10,494 bases of DNA from an uncultured Verrucomicrobiota bacterium (GTDB lineage: Bacteria > Verrucomicrobiota > Kiritimatiellia > RFP12 > UBA1067). A program made the position numbers and the translations under genes. This document shows positions 1,499 to 10,494 of the stretch, in pieces; the stretch's first letter is position 1, and every line of letters begins with the position of its first letter. Below the pieces are notes generated by a model, which was not told the origin of the DNA, did not search any database, and worked only from the letters and a program-made list of their open reading frames with translations. The stretch covers positions 1 through 10,494 of the forward strand of contig CALYRV010000062.1 of NCBI GenBank assembly GCA_945483525.1, in the 5' to 3' direction.

Positions 1499-2460
1499 CG
1501 CTCTATGTCGGATACAAGGCGTCGGATATCAAGCCGGAAATGCTTGGTGACGACTCCGTCTTCCATACGCTCGACGTCTATCATCGGCACGCGATCGAGA
1601 AGGTGCATCACGCCAGGGCAGTCTGTTCGCCGCACTTGCCGGAAGGGGAGTGGGACAAGGTCTGCTGCTTGACGGGGCCGAAGCTGATGAGCGGCGAGCT
1701 GTCGCTCGATATGCTGCAGGAATGTCACCGGATCGCCGATAAGTGCGGCTGCAAGGTCGAGGTCCGTTTCGTCGGCAGAGAGCGCGACCGCAACGACCTG
1801 CTCGACAAGGTCAGGGACCGCACCGACCGCGTGTTCAAGGCGGAATGGCCGGCGAGCGTCCCAGGCGGCAGTCAGCTGACGTTCACCTCGTATCCCGGCT
1901 GTTTCTGTCACCGCCGCCTCGACGAAGGTGGGCTCGCCTTGGCGGAAGTGGTCACGAGGGAGTTGAAGTCGCGAGTTGAAGTTGAAGATCGGAAGCTTAG
2001 ACTTCTTGATATGGGGTGTGGTTGCGGGTTGGTAGGGTTTCTAATCACCGACTACATAAGGAAGAGTTCACCCTCCGCTCTTCAACTTGAGACTTCAACT
2101 TCATCCTCGCCTCTTGACTTGGTCCTCGTGGACAGTCATAGCCGTGCAGTGGAGGCGGCGGAGGAGAACTCGCGGAAGTTCGGCATTCCGGCGGAGGTGA
2201 TTCTTTCTGATAATGGCACGCCCGCGAAAATGGATGGCACGTTCGATGTCTTCGTCGGTAATCCTCCGTACTACAGCGATTATCGGATCGCGGACGTCTT
2301 TCTCGAGACCGCGAAAAGGGCGCTCAGACCGGGAGGAATCTGCTATACTGTATGTAAGAACGCCGCGGGTCTCGAGCCGGTGCAGAAGAAGTATTTCCCC
2401 GAAGTGAATATTATCAAACGGAGAGGTTATGCCGTTCTCAAATCGATTTCATGTGCTTGA
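1495..2460 (+). CDS. RsmC/RlmG-like class I SAM-dependent methyltransferase
   Basis: Probable rRNA guanine-N2 methyltransferase of the MTS (RsmC/RlmG) family. The 321-residue protein has an N-terminal domain of about 130 residues, then the family hallmark SYPGCFCHRRLDEG (132-145). The SAM-binding motif I LDMGCGCGLVG is at 171-181 and the catalytic-type NPPYY at 256-260. LRPGG and a C-terminal RRGYAVLKS close the Rossmann fold as in RsmC. The exact target base cannot be told from sequence. Two segments look like additions to the family core: about residues 156-168 just before motif I, and about 190-208 (Ser/Thr-rich) between helix A and strand 2. Both are encoded by 7-bp-periodic repeats forming a 21-nt inverted pair. 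It starts at ATGA overlapping gltX and ends 32 bp inside the next gene, so the three are probably co-transcribed. Confidence 0.85.
   Translation: MTLYVGYKASDIKPEMLGDDSVFHTLDVYHRHAIEKVHHARAVCSPHLPEGEWDKVCCLTGPKLMSGELSLDMLQECHRIADKCGCKVEVRFVGRERDRNDLLDKVRDRTDRVFKAEWPASVPGGSQLTFTSYPGCFCHRRLDEGGLALAEVVTRELKSRVEVEDRKLRLLDMGCGCGLVGFLITDYIRKSSPSALQLETSTSSSPLDLVLVDSHSRAVEAAEENSRKFGIPAEVILSDNGTPAKMDGTFDVFVGNPPYYSDYRIADVFLETAKRALRPGGICYTVCKNAAGLEPVQKKYFPEVNIIKRRGYAVLKSISCA
1961..2100. repeat. Heptad-repeat inverted pair inside the methyltransferase gene
   Basis: The 21 nt at 1961-1981 are the reverse complement of 2080-2100 with two mismatches, at the central positions. Each arm is built of GTTGAAG-like units, and the left arm continues as a further GTTGAAG unit to about 1987. 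The 98 bp between the arms code for motif I of the methyltransferase. The reading frame is kept through both arms. Confidence 0.75.
2420..2426 (+). promoter_or_regulatory. Shine-Dalgarno GGAGAGG for the M50 protease
   Basis: GGAGAGG ends only 2 nt before the ATG at 2429, closer than usual. It is nevertheless the only purine-rich site near a start that gives the expected N-terminus, and it lies inside the 3' end of the methyltransferase gene. Confidence 0.45.
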
Positions 2461-3169
2461 CGCGTTTGGAATTCCTATCTACGTCAACATTTCCTTCGTG
2501 TTTCTGCTGATCCTGTTCGTGGTCGACATGAATTCGTTCAGTGTCGGTGTCGGCTGTGCGCTAGTGTTGGCGATCTCGATTGCTCTTCATGAACTCGCGC
2601 ACGCGCTGACTGCGCGGCTTTTCGGGTATAGGACGCGCGACATCACGCTTTCTCTGCTCGGCGGATGTGCATCGCTTATCGCCCTTCCCCGGAAGGGATG
2701 GCAGGAGTTTCTGACGGCATTGGCCGGTCCGCTGATGAGCTTTGCGATATCAGGGTCGGTATTGGCGCTGGATATTATCGGCGTCCCCGTTCGCAACGAA
2801 TGGCTACGCGAGGTGCTGAGGTATGCATTTGCAATGAATATGATCCTTGGAATCTTCAATCTGCTGCCGGGATTTCCAATGGACGGCGGCAGGATCTTCC
2901 GCAGTATCATGCGCATCTTTATGAATCGCGCCCATGCCACCTTTATCGCCATGTGGGTCGGCAGGGCTGTCGCAGTGCTGATCGGTCTGCGCGGACTCTG
3001 GTCGGTGCTCAATCATGGTCCGTTCGGGTTTATCACGATCATGATCGCGTGGATGATTTGGAAGGAGGGCTATCGCGAATATCTACTGGCGAAGCAGGAG
3101 GAAGACTTCCGTAATTGGAGTCAAGACGATTTCGAAGCTCGCGTCTCCCCACCGCCGTACGATCGCTGA
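2429..3169 (+). CDS. Site-2 protease family (M50) intramembrane zinc metalloprotease
   Basis: A polytopic membrane protein of 246 residues. The zinc site HELAH is at residues 54-58 in the first half of a hydrophobic helix. The third metal ligand is expected at D152 in NLLPGFPMDGGR (144-155), the second M50 signature. A conserved LAGP lies at 98-101, and the N-terminus FGIPIYVNISF matches the usual start of this subfamily, supporting the ATG at 2429. There is no PDZ or CBS domain, so it resembles the minimal SpoIVFB/Rip-like proteases rather than RseP. The substrate is unknown; such enzymes cleave membrane-bound regulators. The gene overlaps the methyltransferase by 32 bp in another frame. The hydrophilic tail after about residue 212 is probably cytoplasmic. 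Confidence 0.9.
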   Translation: MPFSNRFHVLDAFGIPIYVNISFVFLLILFVVDMNSFSVGVGCALVLAISIALHELAHALTARLFGYRTRDITLSLLGGCASLIALPRKGWQEFLTALAGPLMSFAISGSVLALDIIGVPVRNEWLREVLRYAFAMNMILGIFNLLPGFPMDGGRIFRSIMRIFMNRAHATFIAMWVGRAVAVLIGLRGLWSVLNHGPFGFITIMIAWMIWKEGYREYLLAKQEEDFRNWSQDDFEARVSPPPYDR

Positions 3170-3185
3170 TTGCCTAAATTCTGCA

Positions 3186-3215
3186 TTGACGGCGTGAGTA
3201 AGATTTTGGTATACT
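3186..3215 (+). promoter_or_regulatory. Promoter of the tRNA-Thr/tRNA-His transcription unit
   Basis: TTGACG (3186-3191) and TATACT (3210-3215) are separated by 18 nt, and TGG directly before the -10 adds an extended element. The predicted start near 3222 lies about 6 nt before tRNA-Thr. It is the best full sigma70-type promoter in the window. No other clear promoter is seen before RNase P RNA, so it may drive the whole 3228-4523 unit. Confidence 0.75.
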
Positions 3216-3227
3216 ACATTATTACAG

Positions 3228-3303
3228 GCCAGGTTAGCACAGTTGGTAGTGCGGCTCATTCGTAATGAGCAGGTCGGGGGTTCGAGTCCCTTACCTGGCT
3301 CCA
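3228..3303 (+). tRNA. tRNA-Thr (anticodon CGU)
   Basis: A complete cloverleaf. The 7-bp acceptor stem (GCCAGGT/ACCTGGC) is perfect, D stem GCAC/GTGC, anticodon stem GCTCA/TGAGC, loop TTCGTAA with anticodon CGT, and T arm with loop TTCGAGT. The discriminator base is T and the CCA end is encoded (3301-3303). It reads ACG codons. It is followed after 3 nt by tRNA-His. Confidence 0.95.
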
Positions 3304-3306
3304 GTT

Positions 3307-3384
3307 GGCGGGAGTAGATCAATTGGTTAGATCAACAGATTGTGATTCTGTGGGTTGCGGGTTCGAGTCCCGTCTCCTGCCCCA
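3307..3384 (+). tRNA. tRNA-His (anticodon GUG)
   Basis: A cloverleaf with the His-specific extra G at position -1 (3307) facing C73 (3381). The acceptor stem contains one G-T pair, the D stem is GATC/GATC, the anticodon stem ACAGA/TCTGT and the loop TTGTGAT, giving anticodon GTG. The T loop is TTCGAGT and the CCA end is encoded. Both tRNAs here carry genomic CCA. Confidence 0.95.
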
Positions 3385-3405
3385 GTTTGAAAAGGAAATC
3401 GGGAA

Positions 3406-4131
3406 ATGACGGTCGTTGAAAGTTTGATTGAACTGCAGGAAGTTGACGGGCGTATCCGCGAACTCGAGTCTGAACTCAAGGATCTCCCCGTGCGCAAAGC
3501 GCAGGAAACGGCGCGACTTTCTGGCGTCTCCGCCGATCTGCAGGCCGCCAAAGCTAATCTCGATTATGTCAATCAGCGCGTAAAGAATCTTGAGGCTGAT
3601 GAACAGTCGCTTAAGGAGAAGATCCAGAAGCTCAAAGCTGATCAGATGAACCTTAAGTCGAATAAGGAATATCAGCAGTATTCGGTACAGATCGATATGG
3701 TCGAGCACGATCGCGAGACGACTGCGAACAACTGGGAGGCGGCAAGTGATGATATTCCGGCTGCGCAGGCTCGTCTTGATGAGGCGCAGGGGAAGTATGA
3801 TGCCGCGGCAGGAGGTGTGAAGGCCTACTGCGACGAAATTGATGAGCGTATCGCGTCCGTCCAAGCCGAACTCGCCGAAGCGACCAAGGAGCGTGTAGAG
3901 AAGGCGAAGGCGGTGAATGATCCGAAGTTCATGCTTTATTACGAGCGTCTTCGCACCAAGCGCTGGCCGGTTGTCGTTCCGCTGACCCATGATGGTGTCT
4001 GTGACGGTTGCCATCTCGTTCAGCCGCCGAGTGTCGCTCAGCTCGCTGATGCCAACGCCAAGAACGGCGAGGCCGGCAAGCCTCAGGGAATTGTCGCCTG
4101 CACGATGTGCGGTCGCATTCTCTATCGCTGA
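3406..4131 (+). CDS. Coiled-coil protein with C-terminal C4 zinc ribbon (COG1579/CT398-like)
   Basis: A 241-residue protein of two parts. Residues 1 to about 170 are charged and heptad-like, predicted as a long antiparallel coiled-coil hairpin, and include the family-typical SNKEYQQ at 85-91. The C-terminus carries four cysteines in CDGC (199-202) and CTMC (232-235), forming a zinc ribbon. This is the architecture of COG1579, which includes chlamydial CT398 and Helicobacter HP0958 (FlgZ). Described members act as chaperone-like adaptors or putative nucleic-acid binders, and no enzyme activity is known. A purine-rich AAAGGAAA stands about 8 nt before the ATG, which lies 21 nt after tRNA-His. 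It is followed directly by RNase P RNA, suggesting shared transcription with tRNAs and rnpB; any role in RNA metabolism is inference. Confidence 0.85.
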   Translation: MTVVESLIELQEVDGRIRELESELKDLPVRKAQETARLSGVSADLQAAKANLDYVNQRVKNLEADEQSLKEKIQKLKADQMNLKSNKEYQQYSVQIDMVEHDRETTANNWEAASDDIPAAQARLDEAQGKYDAAAGGVKAYCDEIDERIASVQAELAEATKERVEKAKAVNDPKFMLYYERLRTKRWPVVVPLTHDGVCDGCHLVQPPSVAQLADANAKNGEAGKPQGIVACTMCGRILYR

Positions 4132-4146
4132 TCTTTGAAAATTCCC

Positions 4147-4523
4147 GTTGAAGTGGTTCGCGGGGGACCGATCGAGCCTGTGAAAGCAGGGTAGGAAAGT
4201 CCGGACTCCGCAGGACAGGTGATCGGGCTGTAATGGCCCGGGGGCACGGGGCAAACCCGTGCGATAGAGAGTACCACAGAAACATACCGCCCTCCGTTGT
4301 TGATCCGCGAGGATCACGAAGGAAGGTAAGGGTGAAAAGGCGGTGTAAGAGACCACCGGCGCGATAACACGCGTGCAAGGCAAACCTTCACCGGAGCAAG
4401 ATCAAATAGGGGAACGACTGGCTGTTCGTCGGGTGTCCGCAAGGACTAAGTTCCCGGGTTGATTGCTTAGAGGAATGATCGGATAAAACAGAATCCGGCT
4501 TACTCCTCGCGTGCCACTTCAGC
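4147..4523 (+). ncRNA. rnpB: RNase P RNA, bacterial class A
   Basis: Catalytic RNA of RNase P, which removes 5' leaders from pre-tRNAs. Hallmarks in order are GGAAAGTCCGGACTCC (4195-4210), ACAGAAACATACCGCC, GGTAAGGGTGAAAAGGCGG, GAGCAAGATCAAATAGGGG, AGAGGAATGATC, and ACAGAATCCGGCTTA near the 3' end. P1 closes the molecule: TGAAGTGG (4149-4156) pairs with CCACTTCA (4514-4521), and CGCGGGG pairs with CCTCGCG just inside. Pairing can continue outward to about 4137/4532, so the exact ends are approximate. A GGGT before the GTCC-GCAA-GGAC hairpin may be the L15 GGU that binds the tRNA CCA end, fitting the CCA-encoding tRNAs upstream. It starts about 15 nt after the zinc-ribbon stop codon with no clear promoter of its own. 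Confidence 0.95.
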
Positions 4524-4531
4524 GGGAATTT

Positions 4532-4540
4532 TGGTATAAT
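4532..4540 (+). promoter_or_regulatory. Extended -10 promoter (TGGTATAAT) of the mutase gene
   Basis: TGG plus a perfect TATAAT at 4535-4540, with no convincing -35. The expected start at 4546-4548 touches the ATG at 4549, so the transcript should be leaderless. The element begins where the extended P1 pairing of RNase P RNA ends. Confidence 0.75.
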
Positions 4541-4548
4541 CCAGATAT

Positions 4549-5928
4549 ATGGGATTCTTTAAGGCGTACGATATGCGTGGTACTTTCGGGACCGATTTCG
4601 ATCTCGAGACCGCGTATAAGGTCGGAAGGGCTCTTCCGAAGGTTGTCAAGGGTGGAAAATGGCTGGTTGGGCGCGATTGCCGCGTCACTTCCGCCGCGAT
4701 ACGTGATGCGCTCGTGAAGGGGCTTTTGGAAGCCGGCGCCAAGGTGACTGACCTCGGGCTCTGCACCACGCCGATGGTGTATTACTTCACCGCGACGGAC
4801 GGCTTTGACGGTAGCGTCATGATCACCGCTTCGCACAATCCGCCGTCCGATAACGGACTCAAGGTCTCGATGCGTACCGCTCTGCCCGTCGGCTATGCCA
4901 ACGGACTGAACGAAGTCGAGAGCACCGTCGCTGCAGACAATTCCGATTATGCGGAAGCAAAAAGGAGAAACGAGACGGAGGTGGACGATGGAAAGTTTGT
5001 CTCTCGCTATGTCGAGTTTCTCAAAAGCAAGTTAACCGCCAATTTCTCTTTCTCCGCCTCTTCTCATCCGCTTAAGATAGGCGTCGACTGCTCCAACGGC
5101 ATGGCGTCGCTGCTGGTGCATGACGTTTTTCCAGATGCGGTCGTCATCAACGATACGCTGGACGGATCGTTTCCGAACCACTCTCCGAATCCGCTCAAGG
5201 CCGAAGCGCGCGAGCAGATCGCCGCGCTCGTGCGGGAGCGTAAGCTCGACTGCGGCATCATCTTCGACGGTGATGCCGATCGCGCGATGTTCGTCGACGA
5301 GAACGGAGGTTTTATCCAGCCGGATTATCTGATCCCGATTATCGCCAGTACTTTTGGCGATGCCTGCGGTTCCAGGATTATCCACGATGTCCGTACCTCG
5401 CGGGGCTCAATCGAGATGATCCGCGAGATGGGGTGCGAGCCGGTGATGGTGCCAGTCGGGCACGCCTTCGCGAAGCCGAAGATGCGTGAGACCGGTGCGG
5501 TCTGCGGCGGCGAACTGGCGGGACACTACTACTTCCGCGAGTTCTTCGGCTGCGATTCCGCCTTCCTTGCCGCGATTCACGTCCTTGCCGCGTTCGCGAG
5601 GTTTAGGTTGGAGGTTGAGAATGGAGTTTCAACCTTTTCTGAAATGATGAAGCCGATAATCTCGCGCTATGCGAATTCCGGCGAGCTGAACTTCAAGGTC
5701 GAGGATAAGGATGCGGCGATTGTCAGGGTTCTCGCTTTCGCCGCGGCGAATTTGCCGCTGGAGGTTTCGCGTAGTACGATGGACGGCATCCGGATCGAGT
5801 ACGACGAGGGCTGGATCAATGTCCGCAAGTCGAACACCGAACCGTATCTCCGGCTCATTGTCGAAGCGAAGACGGAACCGCTTATGCAGGAATGGGTGCG
5901 TGTACTAACTGAAGCTATTGCAGGATAG
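4549..5928 (+). CDS. Phosphomannomutase/phosphoglucomutase (alpha-D-phosphohexomutase)
   Basis: Interconverts hexose 6-phosphate and 1-phosphate, supplying mannose-1-P or glucose-1-P for nucleotide sugars and envelope polysaccharides. The 459-residue protein has all four family signatures. They are the phosphoserine loop TASHNPP (S95), the metal-binding DGDADR (240-245), the sugar-binding GGELAGH (320-326, Ala in place of the usual Ser) and the phosphate-binding RKSNTEP (426-432). The bifunctional ManB/AlgC type fits best; sequence alone does not settle mannose versus glucose. The ATG at 4549 gives the canonical FKAYDMRG N-terminus and has no Shine-Dalgarno, consistent with a leaderless mRNA. 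Residues about 351-363 are encoded by a heptad repeat that fills a surface-loop position before the C-terminal domain. Product use may link to the NDP-sugar dehydratase at the window's end. Confidence 0.93.
   Translation: MGFFKAYDMRGTFGTDFDLETAYKVGRALPKVVKGGKWLVGRDCRVTSAAIRDALVKGLLEAGAKVTDLGLCTTPMVYYFTATDGFDGSVMITASHNPPSDNGLKVSMRTALPVGYANGLNEVESTVAADNSDYAEAKRRNETEVDDGKFVSRYVEFLKSKLTANFSFSASSHPLKIGVDCSNGMASLLVHDVFPDAVVINDTLDGSFPNHSPNPLKAEAREQIAALVRERKLDCGIIFDGDADRAMFVDENGGFIQPDYLIPIIASTFGDACGSRIIHDVRTSRGSIEMIREMGCEPVMVPVGHAFAKPKMRETGAVCGGELAGHYYFREFFGCDSAFLAAIHVLAAFARFRLEVENGVSTFSEMMKPIISRYANSGELNFKVEDKDAAIVRVLAFAAANLPLEVSRSTMDGIRIEYDEGWINVRKSNTEPYLRLIVEAKTEPLMQEWVRVLTEAIAG
5599..5634. repeat. 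Heptad repeat with hairpin inside the mutase gene
   Basis: Five units of 7 bp with GGTTGRR-like sequence. GGTTGAG then AATGGAG is exactly the two-unit module found, in the same register, at the uppS/cdsA junction; the shared exact match is 16 nt (5611-5626 and 9079-9094). GGTTGA at 5613-5618 can pair with TCAACC at 5629-5634, with the core GGAGTTTC between. The frame stays open. Confidence 0.75.
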
Positions 5929-5971
5929 AATGTGCTGGGAACGATTATGCTATTGGCCGTCGTTCCGCTCT

Positions 5972-5978
5972 GGGGGGA
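5972..5978 (+). promoter_or_regulatory. Shine-Dalgarno GGGGGGA deciding the PHP-gene start
   Basis: The G run is 9 nt before the ATG at 5988 but touches the TTG at 5979. It therefore favours the ATG. Confidence 0.55.
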
Positions 5979-5987
5979 TTGGATCTC

Positions 5988-6914
5988 ATGATTGTCGATT
6001 TCCATGTGCATTCTACGGCGAGTGACGGGACGTTCCGCCCCGCCGAACTCGCGGAGAAGGCAGTGCGCGGCGGTTTTGCCGCGCTGGCGCTCACCGATCA
6101 CGACAATTGCAACGGGGTTAAGGAACTTTCATCATGTCCATTGTCGACCTCGGAATGCAACCTGCACCTGATCCCCGGCATCGAGCTCTCCATCGAGCCT
6201 GGCTCTGGCTTCGACAAGTTTCATCTGCTGGGACTTGGAGTTGATCCGGAGAATTCACAGCTGAAGGCGTTGATGAAGTCCATCCTCGACGGGCGCAACG
6301 CCCGGAATCAGCGCATCCGCGCGAATTTCCTCCGTCTTGGCATTGATATGCCGTTGGATCCGAGGTCCAGGGTTGTGAGCGAAGAATCTGCCTCCGTACC
6401 TCATTCCTCATTCCCAGTTCCTCGTTCTTCCGACATCATCGCCCGTCCCCATTACGCGCGGTGGCTGATGGAGCACGGTTTCGCGCGGGACATCAGGGAC
6501 GCGTTCGCGAGGTATCTGCTCCCGGAATCGCCCTCCGCGACGCGGTGTTACGAGGAGCGGTGGCATCCGGCGCAGGAGGACGCTTTTGCCGCAATCCATG
6601 CGGCTGGCGGCGTCTGCGTGATGGCGCATCCGAAGTACTGGCGTGGCGATTGGAAGGATGTCGGTTGTGATTTCGCTGCGGCGGGAAAGGAGCTCGCAAG
6701 GCTCAAAGAGGCGGGTCTTGACGGTATTGAGGCGCATTATCAAGCCAATACCGGCGAAGAAAACGTCGAGTTCACGCGGATTGCTACGAAACTCGGATTC
6801 CTTCTGTCCGCCGGCAGTGACTTCCACGGGGATAACAAGCCGACGATTCCGCTCGGCATGGAGGTTTCTGAATCTTTCATAAATCCCCTCATGGAACGGT
6901 TGAATTTGGTATAA
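5988..6914 (+). CDS. PHP-domain metal-dependent phosphoesterase (YciV/RNase AM-like)
   Basis: A polymerase-and-histidinol-phosphatase fold enzyme hydrolysing phosphoesters with a multi-metal centre. Relatives (COG0613) include YciV/RnaAM and 3',5'-nucleoside bisphosphate phosphatases. The 308-residue protein shows the metal ligands in order: FHVHSTASDG near the N-terminus, LTDHDN, PGIELS, RPHYARWLMEHG in the middle, AHPKYW, and GSDFHGDNKP near the C-terminus. A TTG start at 5979 would add three residues; ATG is preferred because of the GGGGGGA site and a start right at the first beta strand. A Ser/Pro-rich stretch before RPHYARW (about residues 135-148) is encoded by a CCTCATT heptad repeat and looks added to the family core. 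The stop TAA is contained in the -10 box of purA. Confidence 0.88.
   Translation: MIVDFHVHSTASDGTFRPAELAEKAVRGGFAALALTDHDNCNGVKELSSCPLSTSECNLHLIPGIELSIEPGSGFDKFHLLGLGVDPENSQLKALMKSILDGRNARNQRIRANFLRLGIDMPLDPRSRVVSEESASVPHSSFPVPRSSDIIARPHYARWLMEHGFARDIRDAFARYLLPESPSATRCYEERWHPAQEDAFAAIHAAGGVCVMAHPKYWRGDWKDVGCDFAAAGKELARLKEAGLDGIEAHYQANTGEENVEFTRIATKLGFLLSAGSDFHGDNKPTIPLGMEVSESFINPLMERLNLV
6391..6433. repeat. CCTCATT-type heptad repeat inside the PHP gene
   Basis: About six units of 7 bp: CCTCCGT, then after one extra base CCTCATT twice, CCCAGTT, CCTCGTT and CTTCCGA. Translated in frame, they form the Ser/Pro-rich loop before the conserved RPHYARW. The consensus has no stop codon in any forward frame. 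Confidence 0.7.
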
Positions 6915-6915
6915 T
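6907..6915 (+). promoter_or_regulatory. Extended -10 promoter (TGGTATAAT), probable purA promoter
   Basis: TGG plus TATAAT at 6910-6915, overlapping the PHP stop codon. The expected start near 6921-6923 would give a leader of about 52 nt, most of which is the heptad array before purA. Confidence 0.65.
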
Positions 6916-6933
6916 ATGCATTAATAAAATACC

Positions 6934-6974
6934 GCAATTCTTTATTCGAAATTCTTGATTCTTAATTCGCATTT
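6934..6974. repeat. NNNATTC heptad array filling the purA leader
   Basis: Five consecutive 7-bp units ending in ATTC (GCAATTC, TTTATTC, GAAATTC, TTGATTC, TTAATTC) run from 6934 to 6968. They are followed by GCATTT, which abuts the purA ATG. It is much more AT-rich than its surroundings. No Shine-Dalgarno is present within it. Confidence 0.8.
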
Positions 6975-8252
6975 ATGAATACAGTACTCGTTGGCGCCCA
7001 GTGGGGCGATGAAGGCAAGGGCAAGGTCATTGATTTTCTTACCGAGGAATCGGATGTCGTAGTTCGTTTTCAGGGAGGTTCCAACGCTGGTCACACGGTG
7101 GTCGTCGGGGAGAAGAAATACGTTCTCCACCTCGTCCCTTCGGGAATTCTCCACAACGGCAAGCATTGCGTCATTGGCAATGGCGTAGTGATGGATCCGT
7201 TTGACTTGATGCGTGAGCTTGAAGAGGTCAAGAGCTGGGGCTTTGATCTTGCTGGACGTTTCCACATCTCTGAGCGCGCCCAGATGGTGATGCAGTGGCA
7301 TCGCGCGATCGACAAGGCCGAGGAGGCCGCTCGTTCCGAGGGCGAGAAGATCGGCACTACGGGCCGCGGAATCGGTCCCGCCTATGCGGCGAAGGTCGGT
7401 CGTTACGGTATGCGCGTTGGCGACATCCTCAAGCCCAACTTCCTTGAGCTCGTCCGTAAGCAGGTCGCCGAGGCGAACCGCAAGCTCGTTTCGCTCGGCG
7501 CCCAACCGCTGGACGCTGAGGAGATGGTCAAGCTCTATACGCCGATGGTGAAGGCGCTCATGCCTTACGTCACCGACACGATCCAGTTCCTGCACGAGCA
7601 GCTGGACGACAAGAAGAGCATCCTTTTCGAGGGTGCGCAGGCGACGATGCTCGACATCGACTTCGGCACCTATCCCTTCGTGACGAGCTCTAACCCGACC
7701 GCGGGCGGCGCCTGCACGGGGTCCGGCGTTTCGCCGCGTGCGATCGACCGCGTCATCGGTGTCCTGAAGCTCTATACGACACGCGTGGGCGAGGGTCCGT
7801 TCCCGACCGAGCTCTTTGATGCGGACGGCGAGAAGCTCCGCAAACGCGGCGGCGAATACGGCGCGACCACTGGCCGTCCCCGCCGCTGTGGCTGGTTTGA
7901 TGCCGTTGTCGCTCGATATGCTCAGCGCGTGAATGGTGTCGACTTCTGGGCGATGACGAAACTCGACGTCCTTGATTACTGCCCTGTGGTCAAGATTTGC
8001 ACCGGCTATAAGCGCAATGATGGTTTCGTCTATCAGACCTTCCCGGCAGACCTTGACGTCCTTAAGGACTGCACTCCAGTTTACGAAGAGATGCCCGGCT
8101 GGATGTGCGAGACGTCGCATATCACCGATTATGCGGCGCTTCCCGAGAACGCGAAGGCATATATCAATCGTATCCTCGATATCATCGGCGGTAAGCTCGG
8201 CGTGCTCTCCGTCGGGCCTGCCCGTGAGACCACGCTTAGAATCAACATCTGA
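6975..8252 (+). CDS. purA: Adenylosuccinate synthetase
   Basis: Catalyses GTP-dependent condensation of IMP with aspartate to adenylosuccinate, the first committed step to AMP. The 425-residue product matches the family length (about 430). The P-loop GDEGKGK is at 11-17 with catalytic D12, and NAGH supplies the catalytic His at 40. TTGRGIGPAY, EGAQATMLDIDFGTYPFVTSSNPTAGG (given in part by its key residues), GATTGRPRRCGW and MTKLDVLD follow in order, and SVGPARETT closes the protein. The ATG at 6975 gives the standard N-terminus. There is no Shine-Dalgarno; the bases before the start are a 7-bp repeat array. It appears monocistronic, with another heptad array filling the gap to uppS. Confidence 0.97.
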   Translation: MNTVLVGAQWGDEGKGKVIDFLTEESDVVVRFQGGSNAGHTVVVGEKKYVLHLVPSGILHNGKHCVIGNGVVMDPFDLMRELEEVKSWGFDLAGRFHISERAQMVMQWHRAIDKAEEAARSEGEKIGTTGRGIGPAYAAKVGRYGMRVGDILKPNFLELVRKQVAEANRKLVSLGAQPLDAEEMVKLYTPMVKALMPYVTDTIQFLHEQLDDKKSILFEGAQATMLDIDFGTYPFVTSSNPTAGGACTGSGVSPRAIDRVIGVLKLYTTRVGEGPFPTELFDADGEKLRKRGGEYGATTGRPRRCGWFDAVVARYAQRVNGVDFWAMTKLDVLDYCPVVKICTGYKRNDGFVYQTFPADLDVLKDCTPVYEEMPGWMCETSHITDYAALPENAKAYINRILDIIGGKLGVLSVGPARETTLRINI

Positions 8253-8257
8253 TGAGC

Positions 8258-8357
8258 TGGTAGTTGATAGTTGGTAGTTGATAGTAGTGAGAGAAACTCC
8301 CAATTCCAAATTACCAACTACCATCTACCAACTAGCAACTAACATCTACCAACGTAA
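8258..8357. repeat. Heptad-repeat element with opposing arms filling the purA-uppS gap
   Basis: The left arm has four perfect-period units alternating TGGTAGT and TGATAGT (8258-8285). The right arm has AACTACC, ATCTACC and similar units (8309-8357), largely the reverse complement of the left. The middle contains GAAACTCC (8293-8300), the reverse complement of the core seen in the mutase-gene repeat. The arms can fold into a long imperfect hairpin, possibly acting as an mRNA end barrier after purA. There is no T-run, so it is not a classical terminator. The array ends at the GTG of uppS. Confidence 0.85.
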
Positions 8358-9080
8358 GTGAGACATTTAGCAGTAATCATGGATGGCAATGGCCGTTGGG
8401 CCAAAGCGCATCACAAGCCGCGCCTTGCCGGACACAAGGCGGGTGCGGATGCCCTTGACAGGGTCATGCATTATTGCAAGGACGCCGGGATCGAATACCT
8501 GACCGTGTACGCGTTCTCGACCGAGAACTGGAAGCGGTCGAAGGAAGAGGTTTCCGGGCTCATGAAGCTCCTTTCGGCTTTCATCAGGTCGAAGGAGAAG
8601 ACGCTGGTGAAGAAAGGCGTGCGCTTCCGCGTGATAGGACGGCGCACAGATCTTTCGGCGAAGCTTCAGAAGGAGATCGCCGCGCTTGAGGAGAAGACGA
8701 AGGGCGGCGGTTTCACGCTCGTCGTCGCGCTTTCCTACGGCGGACGCGATGAAATCGTAAGGGCGGTGGAGCGGTATGTACGGCGCGGTCAGGAGACCGC
8801 AGCTCCAGTTGTCGGCGCTTCAGCCGGGGATGCGGAATCCTTTCCGCTCCGTGAAGATGAGTTCGCCAAGTATCTCGACACGGCCGATATTCCGGATCCC
8901 GATCTCATTGTGCGGACCAGTGGCGAGCTGCGGCTTTCCAACTTTCTGCTTTGGCAGGCGGCGTATGCCGAATTCTATTTCACCGATGTCCTGTGGCCCG
9001 ATTTCGATCGTGCCGAATTCGATCGCGCGATAGCGTCGTTCTCTCGTCGTGAACGTCGTCTCGGCGGAAGATTAGGTTGA
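8358..9080 (+). CDS. uppS: Undecaprenyl diphosphate synthase (cis-prenyltransferase)
   Basis: Adds isopentenyl units in cis to farnesyl-PP to make the C55 carrier lipid for peptidoglycan and other surface glycans. The 240-residue protein has HLAVIMDGNGRWA at 3-15 with the catalytic Asp at 9, AFSTENW at 52-58, YGGRDEI at 117-123, and the signature from DPDLIVRTSGE through SNFLLWQ (about 170-190). It ends with YFTDVLWPDF. The start is GTG at 8358, directly preceded by an in-frame TAA (8355-8357), so no longer N-terminus is possible. The protein lacks the 10-20 residues often found before the first motif. No Shine-Dalgarno is seen, and a repeat array runs up to the start. The region around residues 132-160 is somewhat longer than usual. 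The stop TGA comes from a GGTTGA heptad unit. cdsA follows, a common partner. Confidence 0.95.
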   Translation: MRHLAVIMDGNGRWAKAHHKPRLAGHKAGADALDRVMHYCKDAGIEYLTVYAFSTENWKRSKEEVSGLMKLLSAFIRSKEKTLVKKGVRFRVIGRRTDLSAKLQKEIAALEEKTKGGGFTLVVALSYGGRDEIVRAVERYVRRGQETAAPVVGASAGDAESFPLREDEFAKYLDTADIPDPDLIVRTSGELRLSNFLLWQAAYAEFYFTDVLWPDFDRAEFDRAIASFSRRERRLGGRLG

Positions 9081-9101
9081 GGTTGAGAATGGAGGGTTGA
9101 A
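9074..9101. repeat. GGTTGAG heptad repeat at the uppS/cdsA junction
   Basis: Four 7-bp units: AGGTTGA, GGTTGAG, AATGGAG, GGTTGAA. The first supplies the uppS stop codon, and the GGAGG at 9091-9095 serves as the cdsA Shine-Dalgarno, 9 nt from its ATG. Shares 16 exact nt with the repeat in the mutase gene. Confidence 0.75.
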
Positions 9102-9104
9102 TTT

Positions 9105-9752
9105 ATGAAGCATTTGAAAAGAGTTGTCACGGCATTGACGACGGCGGCGCTGGTGGTGTGTGCCATTCTTTATGTGCCGTCGAACTGGTTCACGCCGGTC
9201 TTCGGCGTGTTGATGATTGCGGCGATGGTTGAGTTCTTCATGCTTGCGGCGAAGAAGGTGTCCGTGATTTCGGCCCAGGGTTTCTGCGTCAATCTCGTGG
9301 GTATAATGATTCTTGCTTCGGCTTTTTCGATGTTGGCTACGATTGCTATGCAAGGCGGTAGCTTGTCGTTACTCTATGTGTTGGCGGTGGTTAAGCTTTC
9401 GGATATGGGGGGCTTTGCGTTTGGTGTTGCATTCGGCAAGCATAAGATGTGTCCCACGATTTCTCCGAACAAGAGCTGGGAGGGAATGCTCGGTTCGATT
9501 ATCGCGTCTTGTGTCATGAGCTGTTGTTTTGTCGGCGTTACCGGTTTCGCAATCTGGAAGGCGTTGCTGATCGGTGTGGCTGCTGCGTTCGTCGGTACGT
9601 CCGGCGACCTGGTGGAGTCCAAGTTTAAGCGTTGGGTAGGAGTTAAGGATTCCGGTACCTTCATGCCGGCTGGGCTTGGCGGACTTCTTGACATGTTTGA
9701 TTCGCTGCTTTTCGCACCGGCGCTCATCTGGTTCATTTGTCGGGCGATATGA
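9105..9752 (+). CDS. cdsA: Phosphatidate cytidylyltransferase (CDP-diglyceride synthase)
   Basis: Integral membrane enzyme that makes CDP-diacylglycerol from phosphatidate and CTP, the entry point to phospholipid synthesis. At 215 residues it is shorter than many CdsA proteins (about 260-285), with fewer N-terminal membrane segments. Family marks are KLSDMGGFAFG (97-107), SPNKSWEG (120-127) and the C-terminal block SKFKRWVGVKDSG continuing to LLDMFDS (194-200). That block departs from the usual PGHGG-x-x-DR form: PAGLGG has one extra residue and Leu for His, and Met replaces Arg, while both aspartates (196 and 199) and KD (181-182) are kept. It uses the strong Shine-Dalgarno GGAGG at 9091-9095, follows uppS by 24 nt, and its TGA overlaps the next ATG. 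Confidence 0.9.
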   Translation: MKHLKRVVTALTTAALVVCAILYVPSNWFTPVFGVLMIAAMVEFFMLAAKKVSVISAQGFCVNLVGIMILASAFSMLATIAMQGGSLSLLYVLAVVKLSDMGGFAFGVAFGKHKMCPTISPNKSWEGMLGSIIASCVMSCCFVGVTGFAIWKALLIGVAAAFVGTSGDLVESKFKRWVGVKDSGTFMPAGLGGLLDMFDSLLFAPALIWFICRAI

Positions 9753-10494
9753 AGCGGTCGCGCGAGGCCTGGGCGAAGTTTCTGGCGAGCAGGTTCGCCG
9801 GACTCTTCATCGATGCCGCGATCGTAGCGCTCGCCTATTTCTCCGCGGTTCTGCTGCGGCTCGATTTTCGGAATCCCACTTCGATCGGCGGCTGGAGTTC
9901 GGTGGCGCTCCTGTACGTCAATGTCTGCGTCGTCTATCTTCTCGCGCTGATCTTCACTGGCTGCTACCGCATTCCCTGGCGTCGCACGACCGCGGCGGAT
10001 CTGCCGCGGTATCTGGTCGCGACGGTGCTGGCGACGGTCGTGCTGACCGCGATGCGCTTCTATCTGCCGAACGTCTCGCTTTCGCATGTTCGTCCCCCTT
10101 ATTCGATTACGGCGATATGCTTCTTCCTCGTGACCGCCGGAATTTTCGTGGTCCGTCTCGTCTGGCACGCCTGGTGGCTTTCGCACGTCCGGGAGGAGGA
10201 TCTGCTCGAACGCAAGGTCAAGAACTTCGACGGGTCCGTCGCCCGCAGGTTCTTCGCGGGCAAGGTCGTGATGGTCACCGGCGCGGGCGGTTCCATCGGC
10301 AGCGAAATCGTGAAGCAGGTTGCGGAAGCGGGTGCGGCGAAGGTGCTGATGGTCGAGCGCGGTGAGAACGCGCTGTACGAGATCGACCGGAGAATGAGGG
10401 TGCAGGGTGCTGGGTGCAGGGTGCAGAGTGCAGGGTGCAGGGTGCAGGGTGCAGGGTGCGGGGTGCAGGGTGCGGGGTGCAGGGTGCAGAGAGC
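9749..10494 (+). CDS. Membrane-anchored NDP-sugar dehydratase/epimerase, CapD/FlaA1/PglF type (5' part)
   Basis: The open frame runs from an ATG overlapping the cdsA stop (ATGA) to the window edge, 248 codons. Four hydrophobic segments lie at about 14-36, 50-71, 87-106 and 119-143. A linker precedes a short-chain dehydrogenase/reductase Rossmann start, GKVVMVTGAGGSIGSE (171-186), with NAD(P)-binding GAGGSIG. NALYEIDRRMR follows, as in polysaccharide-biosynthesis dehydratases such as UDP-GlcNAc 4,6-dehydratases that begin modified-sugar synthesis for glycans or glycosylation. From residue 217 the protein becomes a repeating RVQGAGC heptapeptide made by a 7-bp tandem repeat, where family members would continue toward the next beta strand and LGDV motif. 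The catalytic part lies beyond the window, so whether the gene is intact, switched off or a pseudogene cannot be judged. Confidence 0.85.
   Translation, partial: MKRSREAWAKFLASRFAGLFIDAAIVALAYFSAVLLRLDFRNPTSIGGWSSVALLYVNVCVVYLLALIFTGCYRIPWRRTTAADLPRYLVATVLATVVLTAMRFYLPNVSLSHVRPPYSITAICFFLVTAGIFVVRLVWHAWWLSHVREEDLLERKVKNFDGSVARRFFAGKVVMVTGAGGSIGSEIVKQVAEAGAAKVLMVERGENALYEIDRRMRVQGAGCRVQSAGCRVQGAGCGVQGAGCRVQR
10397..10494. repeat. AGGGTGC heptad tandem array inside the dehydratase gene (continues past the window)
   Basis: Fourteen consecutive 7-bp units fill 98 bp with no spacing error. Nine are exactly AGGGTGC; the others differ at one or two positions (TGGGTGC, AGAGTGC, GGGGTGC twice, AGAGAGC at the edge). 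It is in frame with the upstream gene and has no stop in any forward frame. Confidence 0.95.

Follow-up and report, generated by a model that had tools for sequence, protein, structure and literature searches.

Heptamer repeat arrays in a Verrucomicrobiota chromosome stretch and their possible origin from small mobile elements with bIVP genes

Why would a single stretch of bacterial chromosome carry tandem arrays at several places that have a 7-bp period in common, while the unit sequence changes from place to place? This question is raised by the first 10,494 nucleotides of contig CALYRV010000062.1 from an uncultured Verrucomicrobiota bacterium (hereafter the window, i.e., the whole stretch of DNA analysed here). 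On balance, we favour the explanation that the window arrays as a set descend, as copies without a gene, mini-forms or relics, from small mobile elements with a bIVP gene (PF05635), whose full form consists of a heptamer array, the gene and the same array inverted.

To begin with the arrays themselves, lag-7 segments with a score of at least 8 were counted in the window and compared with 200 codon-preserving shuffles. Five segments were observed against a shuffle mean of 0.74 and a maximum of 3, and five or more were reached in 0/200 shuffles. Strict period 7 was found at 6399-6414 (CCTCATT), at 6951-6968 within 6936-6968 (ATTCTTN), at 8261-8285 and 8298-8348 (TAGTTGR and TACCAAC, on opposite strands) and at 10397-10489 (AGGGTGC, 13.3 copies). 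Periods 4-6 and 8-12 were not clearly above the shuffles, with three segments for period 12 (matched by 16/200 shuffles), two for period 6 (by 30/200) and none for the remainder. A first-pass annotation of this DNA had described seven loci with units of exactly 7 bp; this holds at 6399, 6936, 8258-8353 and 10397-10489, but not at 1961, 5598 and 9073, where words of 6 and 7 bp are mixed. At 1961-1990, 2080-2106, 5598-5634 and 9066-9108, the spacing of GTTGAAG/GGTTGAG words varies between 6, 7 and 13, with a lag-7 identity of 0.29-0.42, and Tandem Repeats Finder (TRF) assigned periods of 6, 6 and 13 to the first three places and no row to the last.

The survey was extended to 22 stretches of the clade (about 354 kb), made up of the window, L001 and the surroundings of purA (20 stretches) in 19 clade genomes. 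Here, 17 segments with a score of at least 12 had period 7 (three of them in the window), 16 had period 8, seven period 9, and periods 5 and 6 gave two each. Since period 8 is as common as period 7 in these stretches, period 7 stands out in the window, whereas the clade as a whole is not confined to it. The expectation that period 7 would exceed its neighbours is therefore borne out in the window against codon-preserving shuffles and in the clade against period 6 (17 versus 2), but not against period 8 (16). Likewise, the earlier statement that the period is constant and not the sequence applies to the window and to most bIVP-gene flanks of several phyla, but the clade also features period-8 and period-9 arrays. 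In other phyla, we saw purA neighbourhoods of 16-21 kb that contain between 4 and 11 segments of heptamer arrays (L035, L037, L063, L070 and L015), and here period 7 far exceeds other periods.

PF05635 (bIVP/S23p, "four helix bundle protein") was tested by asking which gene accompanies array-rich genomes. Matches were found in 26/30 genomes (21 above the cut-off) versus 0/14 control genomes, a tally that is biased, as the set of 30 consists of 20 clade relatives and ten genomes chosen for period-7 segments at purA. This bias does not affect where in a genome the arrays lie, which was examined for 65 of the 67 over-cut-off matches (two partial ones were left out) and for five matches below the cut-off. 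Within 200 bp of the bIVP genes, period 7 was present upstream in 33/62 and downstream in 30/62 cases, period 8 in 9/62 and 8/62, and other periods in 0-3. The flanks of ParE genes from the same genomes (30 loci listed), which served as control, gave 1/29 and 0/30 for period 7 and 0/29 and 2/30 for period 8. Moreover, an inverted repeat joined the two flanks in 44/60 bIVP loci versus 0/29 ParE loci and a direct repeat in 5/60 versus 0/29, and the units of the two arms were better matched inverted than direct in 25/27 period-7 and 9/9 period-8 loci. The below-cut-off PF05635 matches were rejected as elements (inverted repeat 0/5, direct repeat 0/5).

A blind sample of 61 genomes drawn evenly from the phylum of G292 (Chloroflexi) contained an over-cut-off PF05635 match in 18 genomes. 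Among 27 of its 70 matches, examined from 17 genomes, period 7 occurred in 14/27 and 12/27 flanks, an inverted repeat in 15/27 and a direct repeat in 2/27. In a third sample of 14 out of 28 plasmid records with a PF05635 match, all complete and circular and including two near-copies of one region, an inverted repeat was found at 14/14 loci, with period 7 in 12 and period 8 in two. Based on the three samples, the general link of bIVP genes with heptamer arrays is close to certain.

Evidence for mobility comes from complete cyanobacterial plasmids. The element of Trichormus variabilis 0441 (L252) is absent from four plasmids (L260, L261, L262 and L269) whose flanks are 97-98% identical, and the aligned difference to the empty site fixes its length at 428 bp, the only case in which a length was fixed in this way. 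(G)TAAT stands on both sides of this element and only once in the empty site, corresponding to a duplication of 4-5 bp. At the same site, all that remains in plasmid pC052_E of Nostoc C052 (L263) is the left array together with the beginning of the bIVP gene. In plasmid pNPM1 of Nostoc N6 (L268), a mini-element of about 180 bp, which lacks a gene but has the arrays at both ends, lies within a bIVP gene that L267 and L256 carry intact; at one nested mini-element, the duplication is 0-1 bp. A nearby gap contains a mini-element in L268 and L256, absent from L267, with a further one nested inside it in L256. At two other sites (L251; L256/L267), the whole element recurs with 78-82% identity and unalignable flanks. 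Thus, the bIVP arrays of cyanobacterial plasmids are the ends of a mobile element, and the empty sites, gene-less mini-elements and decayed copy argue that gene-bearing elements, gene-less elements and remnant arrays represent stages of one element. The first-pass annotation had dismissed a link to cyanobacterial repeats, for which we find no support, as like arrays flank bIVP genes in these plasmids.

With respect to the host, bIVP genes are co-oriented with their neighbours in 31 loci and opposite in nine where both neighbours agree (of 65), compared with nine and five for ParE (of 30). Some bIVP genes were found inside operons (L246, L255, L258 and L248), namely between cas6 and cas4 (two loci in two genera), cmr2 and cmr3, and nrdB and nrdA. 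Some genomes are rich in such genes, with 22 matches in G327 and 12 in G297. Beside the bIVP genes of L144 and of G264 (contig C36, near 18404-18566), we also noticed a higher-order repetition, in which short array blocks recur every 40-50 bp. Domain scans of two bIVP proteins revealed PF05635, in one of them together with a weak match to PF22296 (bAvd), and no transposase-like domain in either. The sole match of a structure search in the PDB was 2gsc, described in the available part of PMC4990558 as a homopentamer of four-helix bundles.

If the gene-less arrays derive from bIVP elements, their units should resemble those at bIVP ends. For 19 gene-less period-7 arrays (five from the window and 14 from the clade), compared with 125 bIVP ends, 0/200 order-shuffles were as alike. 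Three arrays in G251 and G180 fit the units of the resident bIVP element better than those of all other genomes, although the same-genome match as a whole is not significant. The octamer AATAATCG x3 occurs in 3/20 clade genomes, exactly those with a bIVP element of such ends, a distribution that may in part reflect shared descent. The highest numbers of GGGAAC arrays are found in G210 (95) and G001 (74), genomes with bIVP elements of such ends; there are 33 in G142, which has such an element too; apart from the three genomes taken up below, the remaining clade genomes have at most seven, and the reversed control gave 0 in all 20. Related bIVPs tend to have related units, with a Mantel r of 0.16 for period 7 (9/2000 permutations, n = 35) and of 0.28 for period 8 (177/2000, n = 9). 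On the tree of 58 bIVP proteins, period 8 requires six changes versus 8.6 after shuffling (2/500) and period 7 requires 15 versus 18.2 (39/500). A period cleanly following the protein tree was rejected, since the clustering is only weak.

Genes of a second family, PF13366 (GxxExxY), were tested as a family that may have such array flanks as well. Their 250-bp flanks (L216-L245, among 30 loci listed) are joined by an inverted repeat in 23/30 and by a direct repeat in 13/30 cases. Period 7 was found in 0/30 on either side, period 8 in five upstream and seven downstream flanks and period 9 in three and seven, so that the period seems to go with the gene family. The array kinds include CGCAGAGR and the nonamer ACAGGATTN. 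The same nonamer array was seen in the stretches of three clade genomes (L109, L114 and L139).

Turning back to the window, this chromosome stretch contains two tRNA genes, the RNase P RNA and housekeeping genes; by inspection, gltX, a methyltransferase, a membrane protease, a phosphomannomutase, a PHP-domain gene, purA, uppS, cdsA and a CapD-like gene were named. The closest named relative found is a "Lentisphaerae bacterium" metagenome-assembled genome with a 90% identical PurA, and 26/288 genomes of the same class have a purA whose DNA is 77-83% identical along most of its length. All window arrays lie in protein genes or intergenic gaps and none in a 23S rRNA helix. In the purA-uppS gap, TAGTTGA/TAGTTGG units at 8258..8285 (plus strand) form the left arm of an inverted pair, the right arm of which follows at 8298..8353 (minus strand, CCAACTA units on the plus strand; inverted score 16). 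The predicted hairpin of this pair has -33.1 kcal/mol (z -5.19), and that of the L252 element a z of -3.55. With this anatomy of a mini-element, 8258-8353 is a candidate hairpin mini-element, and it counts for an element origin of the window arrays.

In the methyltransferase gene, GTTGAAG words at spacings 6/7/13 occupy a variable loop that immediately precedes the LLDMGCG motif (1961..1990, plus strand). About 90 bp beyond, CTTCAAC words in a second variable loop (2080..2106, minus strand) represent their inverted copy (score 15). The GGTTGAG repeat of the phosphomannomutase gene (5603..5634, plus strand), which ends in a short TTTCAACC in inverted orientation, has a counterpart at the end of uppS (9072..9094, plus strand), where lag-7 identity is only 0.31. 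Between 5603-5626 and 9072-9094, 23/24 bases are common with one gap, i.e., near-identical 23/24-mers, which points to copying between sites, and from their sequence the two places are probably copies of one repeat. A CCTCATT array lies in a variable-length loop of the PHP-domain gene (6399..6427, plus strand; TRF, shuffles and homologues) and an ATTCTTN array immediately upstream of purA (6936..6968, plus strand; TRF and shuffles). For the latter, the nearest bIVP end is L159 (6.5/7; 28/200 order-shuffles equally good). The AGGGTGC array inside the CapD-like gene (10397..10494, plus strand, 13.3 copies) is cut by the end of the window, and any partner arm or bIVP gene beyond 10494 would lie outside its reach; judged by the units, its nearest bIVP end is that of Calothrix NIES-22 (L254; 5.55/7; 77/200 order-shuffles equally good).

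Comparison with relatives revealed how these places change. At the purA-uppS junction, 17 bp separate the aligned blocks in L001, compared with 111 bp in the window. G283, G281 and G241 have one TCGTTGG/TCGTTAG unit at this place, G262 about five, and G289 has GGGTAAT/GGGGAAC units instead. Array change in place by steps of 7 occurs, which lends some support to the earlier idea that some process writes heptamers locally, although expansion in G262 and contraction in G283/G281/G241 are indistinguishable on the tree. The methyltransferase loops (23 of 31 rows parsed by the motif search, two rows being one gene) contain mixed 6/7-bp words in the window, period 7 in L274 and weakly in L273, period 8 in L271 and L295 and, by eye, period 9 with an inverted pair in L277; nothing reaching score 8 was found in L275, L276, L283-L288 and others. 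At the array, the window protein differs by two residues from its 92% identical homologue P0002, and the phosphomannomutases P0123 and P0124, 98% identical overall, differ by two residues at the 5603 array. The arrays are hence unstable, as indicated by the varying loop periods and by these close homologues. In addition, the methyltransferase homologue P0012 carries a 13-residue tandem duplication (LKSRVEVEDR...) exactly at the array site. A further in-frame array, TTTCAGG x4 in a ribF-like gene (L098:3984-4012), apparently brings no length change against the usual motif.

Such changes in place are what a purely replicative origin would produce, i.e., a replication machinery slipping by about 7 nt that expands local 7-mers, with the bIVP ends merely sharing this tendency. 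This idea corresponds to the polymerase-footprint proposal of Mrazek et al. (2007), as quoted in the available parts of PMC4679880 and PMC4692102. The one versus about five units at purA-uppS, the two-residue differences between close homologues and the lack of an inverted partner for 33/40 clade arrays speak in its favour. Slippage alone, however, predicts neither inverted pairs round one gene family (44/60 versus 0/29) nor insertions absent from 97-98% identical plasmids and mini-elements inside genes, nor periods that differ by gene family, as for PF13366 with 8 and 9 in place of 7 (0/30 on either side). We therefore regard it as possible but rather unlikely to be the whole explanation. The host could also retain the arrays because they act as terminators, regulate translation or form flexible loops in proteins; the 8258-8353 pair is predicted to fold well, and translational roles have been proposed for TAACTGA repeats (PMC4679880, in the part available). 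Nevertheless, this appears very improbable given methyltransferase loops with period 7, 8, 9 or none among the 23/31 parsed rows, i.e., unconserved, and a purA-uppS place that varies from genome to genome. Chance or an assembly artefact would be conceivable as the titled clade genomes are metagenome-assembled and the window ends inside an array, but it is hardly credible in view of the 0/200 codon-preserving shuffles reaching the observed count and of arrays of the same kind in complete circular plasmids.

Several observations weigh against an origin of the window arrays from bIVP elements. No bIVP gene was detected in the window or the 22 clade stretches by inspection of the window's open reading frames and tblastn, and only 7/40 gene-less arrays have an inverted partner within 600 bp (3/40 a direct one), most being solo. 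Host coding sequence lies between the arms of the inverted pair round the methyltransferase motif, an arrangement that a single insertion does not explain. Solo arrays and this pair need arm loss, separate insertions or slippage, and the step-of-7 change at purA-uppS fits slippage equally well. Taken by themselves, the five window arrays show only a weak likeness to bIVP ends (16/200 order-shuffles), and a same-genome match of gene-less arrays to resident bIVP units was not significant (97/500 permutations, 16 arrays usable). GGGAAC arrays are also frequent in G256 (44), G283 (42) and G289 (34), three genomes in which no bIVP with ends of this kind was detected. Conversely, the scan gave no array in 12/65 bIVP loci, seven of them in the 12-copy genome G297. 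Finally, a target duplication of fixed length was not found, as the two junctions read give 4-5 bp and 0-1 bp.

How could a bIVP element of this kind work? It may be transcribed by read-through from host promoters, and its two arms could pair, both in the RNA and in DNA that is single-stranded, to a hairpin like that of 23S rRNA intervening sequences. Such hairpins, which are predicted for the L252 element and the window pair, would make insertions of little cost to the host, as for these intervening sequences (PMC4990558). The bIVP protein might bind the hairpin as a ring and recognize regularly spaced units rather than a fixed sequence, while some host enzyme would make the new copy. Recognition by spacing would allow units to drift, whereas spacing and arm complementarity persist, and slippage could afterwards lengthen or shrink the arrays by unit steps.

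As a tentative extension, to which we give less than even confidence, there could be a class of selfish elements defined by the spacing of their end repeats and not by sequence, in which a small ring-shaped protein reads a fixed period. Any unit sequence would be allowed, with period 7 for most bIVPs, 8 for some bIVP groups and 8 or 9 for PF13366, and most bacterial heptanucleotide repeats, including the short tandemly repeated repetitive (STRR) sequences of cyanobacteria and the window arrays, would be remains of such elements. If heptamer repeats are the ends of bIVP elements, this could explain why unrelated bacteria carry them and would make the puzzle directly testable. Moreover, the orphan bIVP/S23p family would gain a role, 23S rRNA intervening sequences would be connected with an element found across the genome, and a source would be given for extra loops in housekeeping proteins and for spacers in operons, including cas and nrd.

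Among known systems, the closest is the intervening sequence (IVS) in the 23S rRNA of Coxiella burnetii. In the available part of the report, it is called selfish and has terminal inverted repeats, an S23p gene and, before the gene, two to three direct heptameric repeats whose number varies by strain (PMC4990558). There, as in the elements described here, a PF05635-type gene lies between complementary ends. Different from the IVS, the elements examined here stand in or between protein genes and, gene-less, genome-wide. The window copies have no PF05635 gene inside, which the full forms elsewhere contain by the design of the search. Inverted ends like those of the S23p/bIVP IVS are seen at 8258-8353 and, round host sequence, at 1961/2080, but not for the array at 10397, which is cut by the window end.

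bAvd/Avd proteins play a role in diversity-generating retroelements. One bIVP matches the bAvd family PF22296 weakly (20.7 bits, E 0.00059), under the family cut-off of 40. Miniature inverted-repeat transposable elements (MITEs) likewise have a short gene-less form whose inverted ends are common to a longer gene-bearing form, as for the cyanobacterial mini-elements; for the window arrays, the unit likeness to bIVP ends is only weak (16/200 order-shuffles as good). In contrast to MITEs, the ends are periodic arrays whose sequence differs from element to element. At the two junctions read, the target duplication is 4-5 bp and 0-1 bp, respectively.

Heptanucleotide repeats are known as STRRs of cyanobacteria, GGGAATC of Xanthomonas and TAACTGA of Beggiatoaceae; the available parts of PMC4692102 and PMC4679880 describe degenerate 7-mers in tandem that are numerous within a genome, frequently lie between genes and are sometimes inverted, as is the case here. 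The likeness to STRRs extends to several 7-mer kinds, with four places in the window and other 7-mers in relatives. For cyanobacteria themselves, the comparison covers 12 plasmid loci where a bIVP gene has period-7 ends. In these parts, their over-representation is attributed to polymerase slippage, with G-quadruplex or regulatory roles for single cases (PMC4679880, PMC4692102), and no mobile element is named as source, whereas the arrays described here go together with a single gene family and with insertion. A published link of bIVP or GxxExxY with heptamer arrays was not found among the listed open-access matches, which is weak evidence of absence, and PMC5524665 and PMC4853749 make no bIVP-heptamer link in the parts available. 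The overlap in the literature is the Coxiella IVS paper, the available part of which reports heptameric repeats in one such element (PMC4990558). Both heptanucleotide repeats and S23p intervening sequences have been described before, whereas a statement joining the two, as S23p elements with MITE-like derivatives, was not seen among the listed open-access matches.

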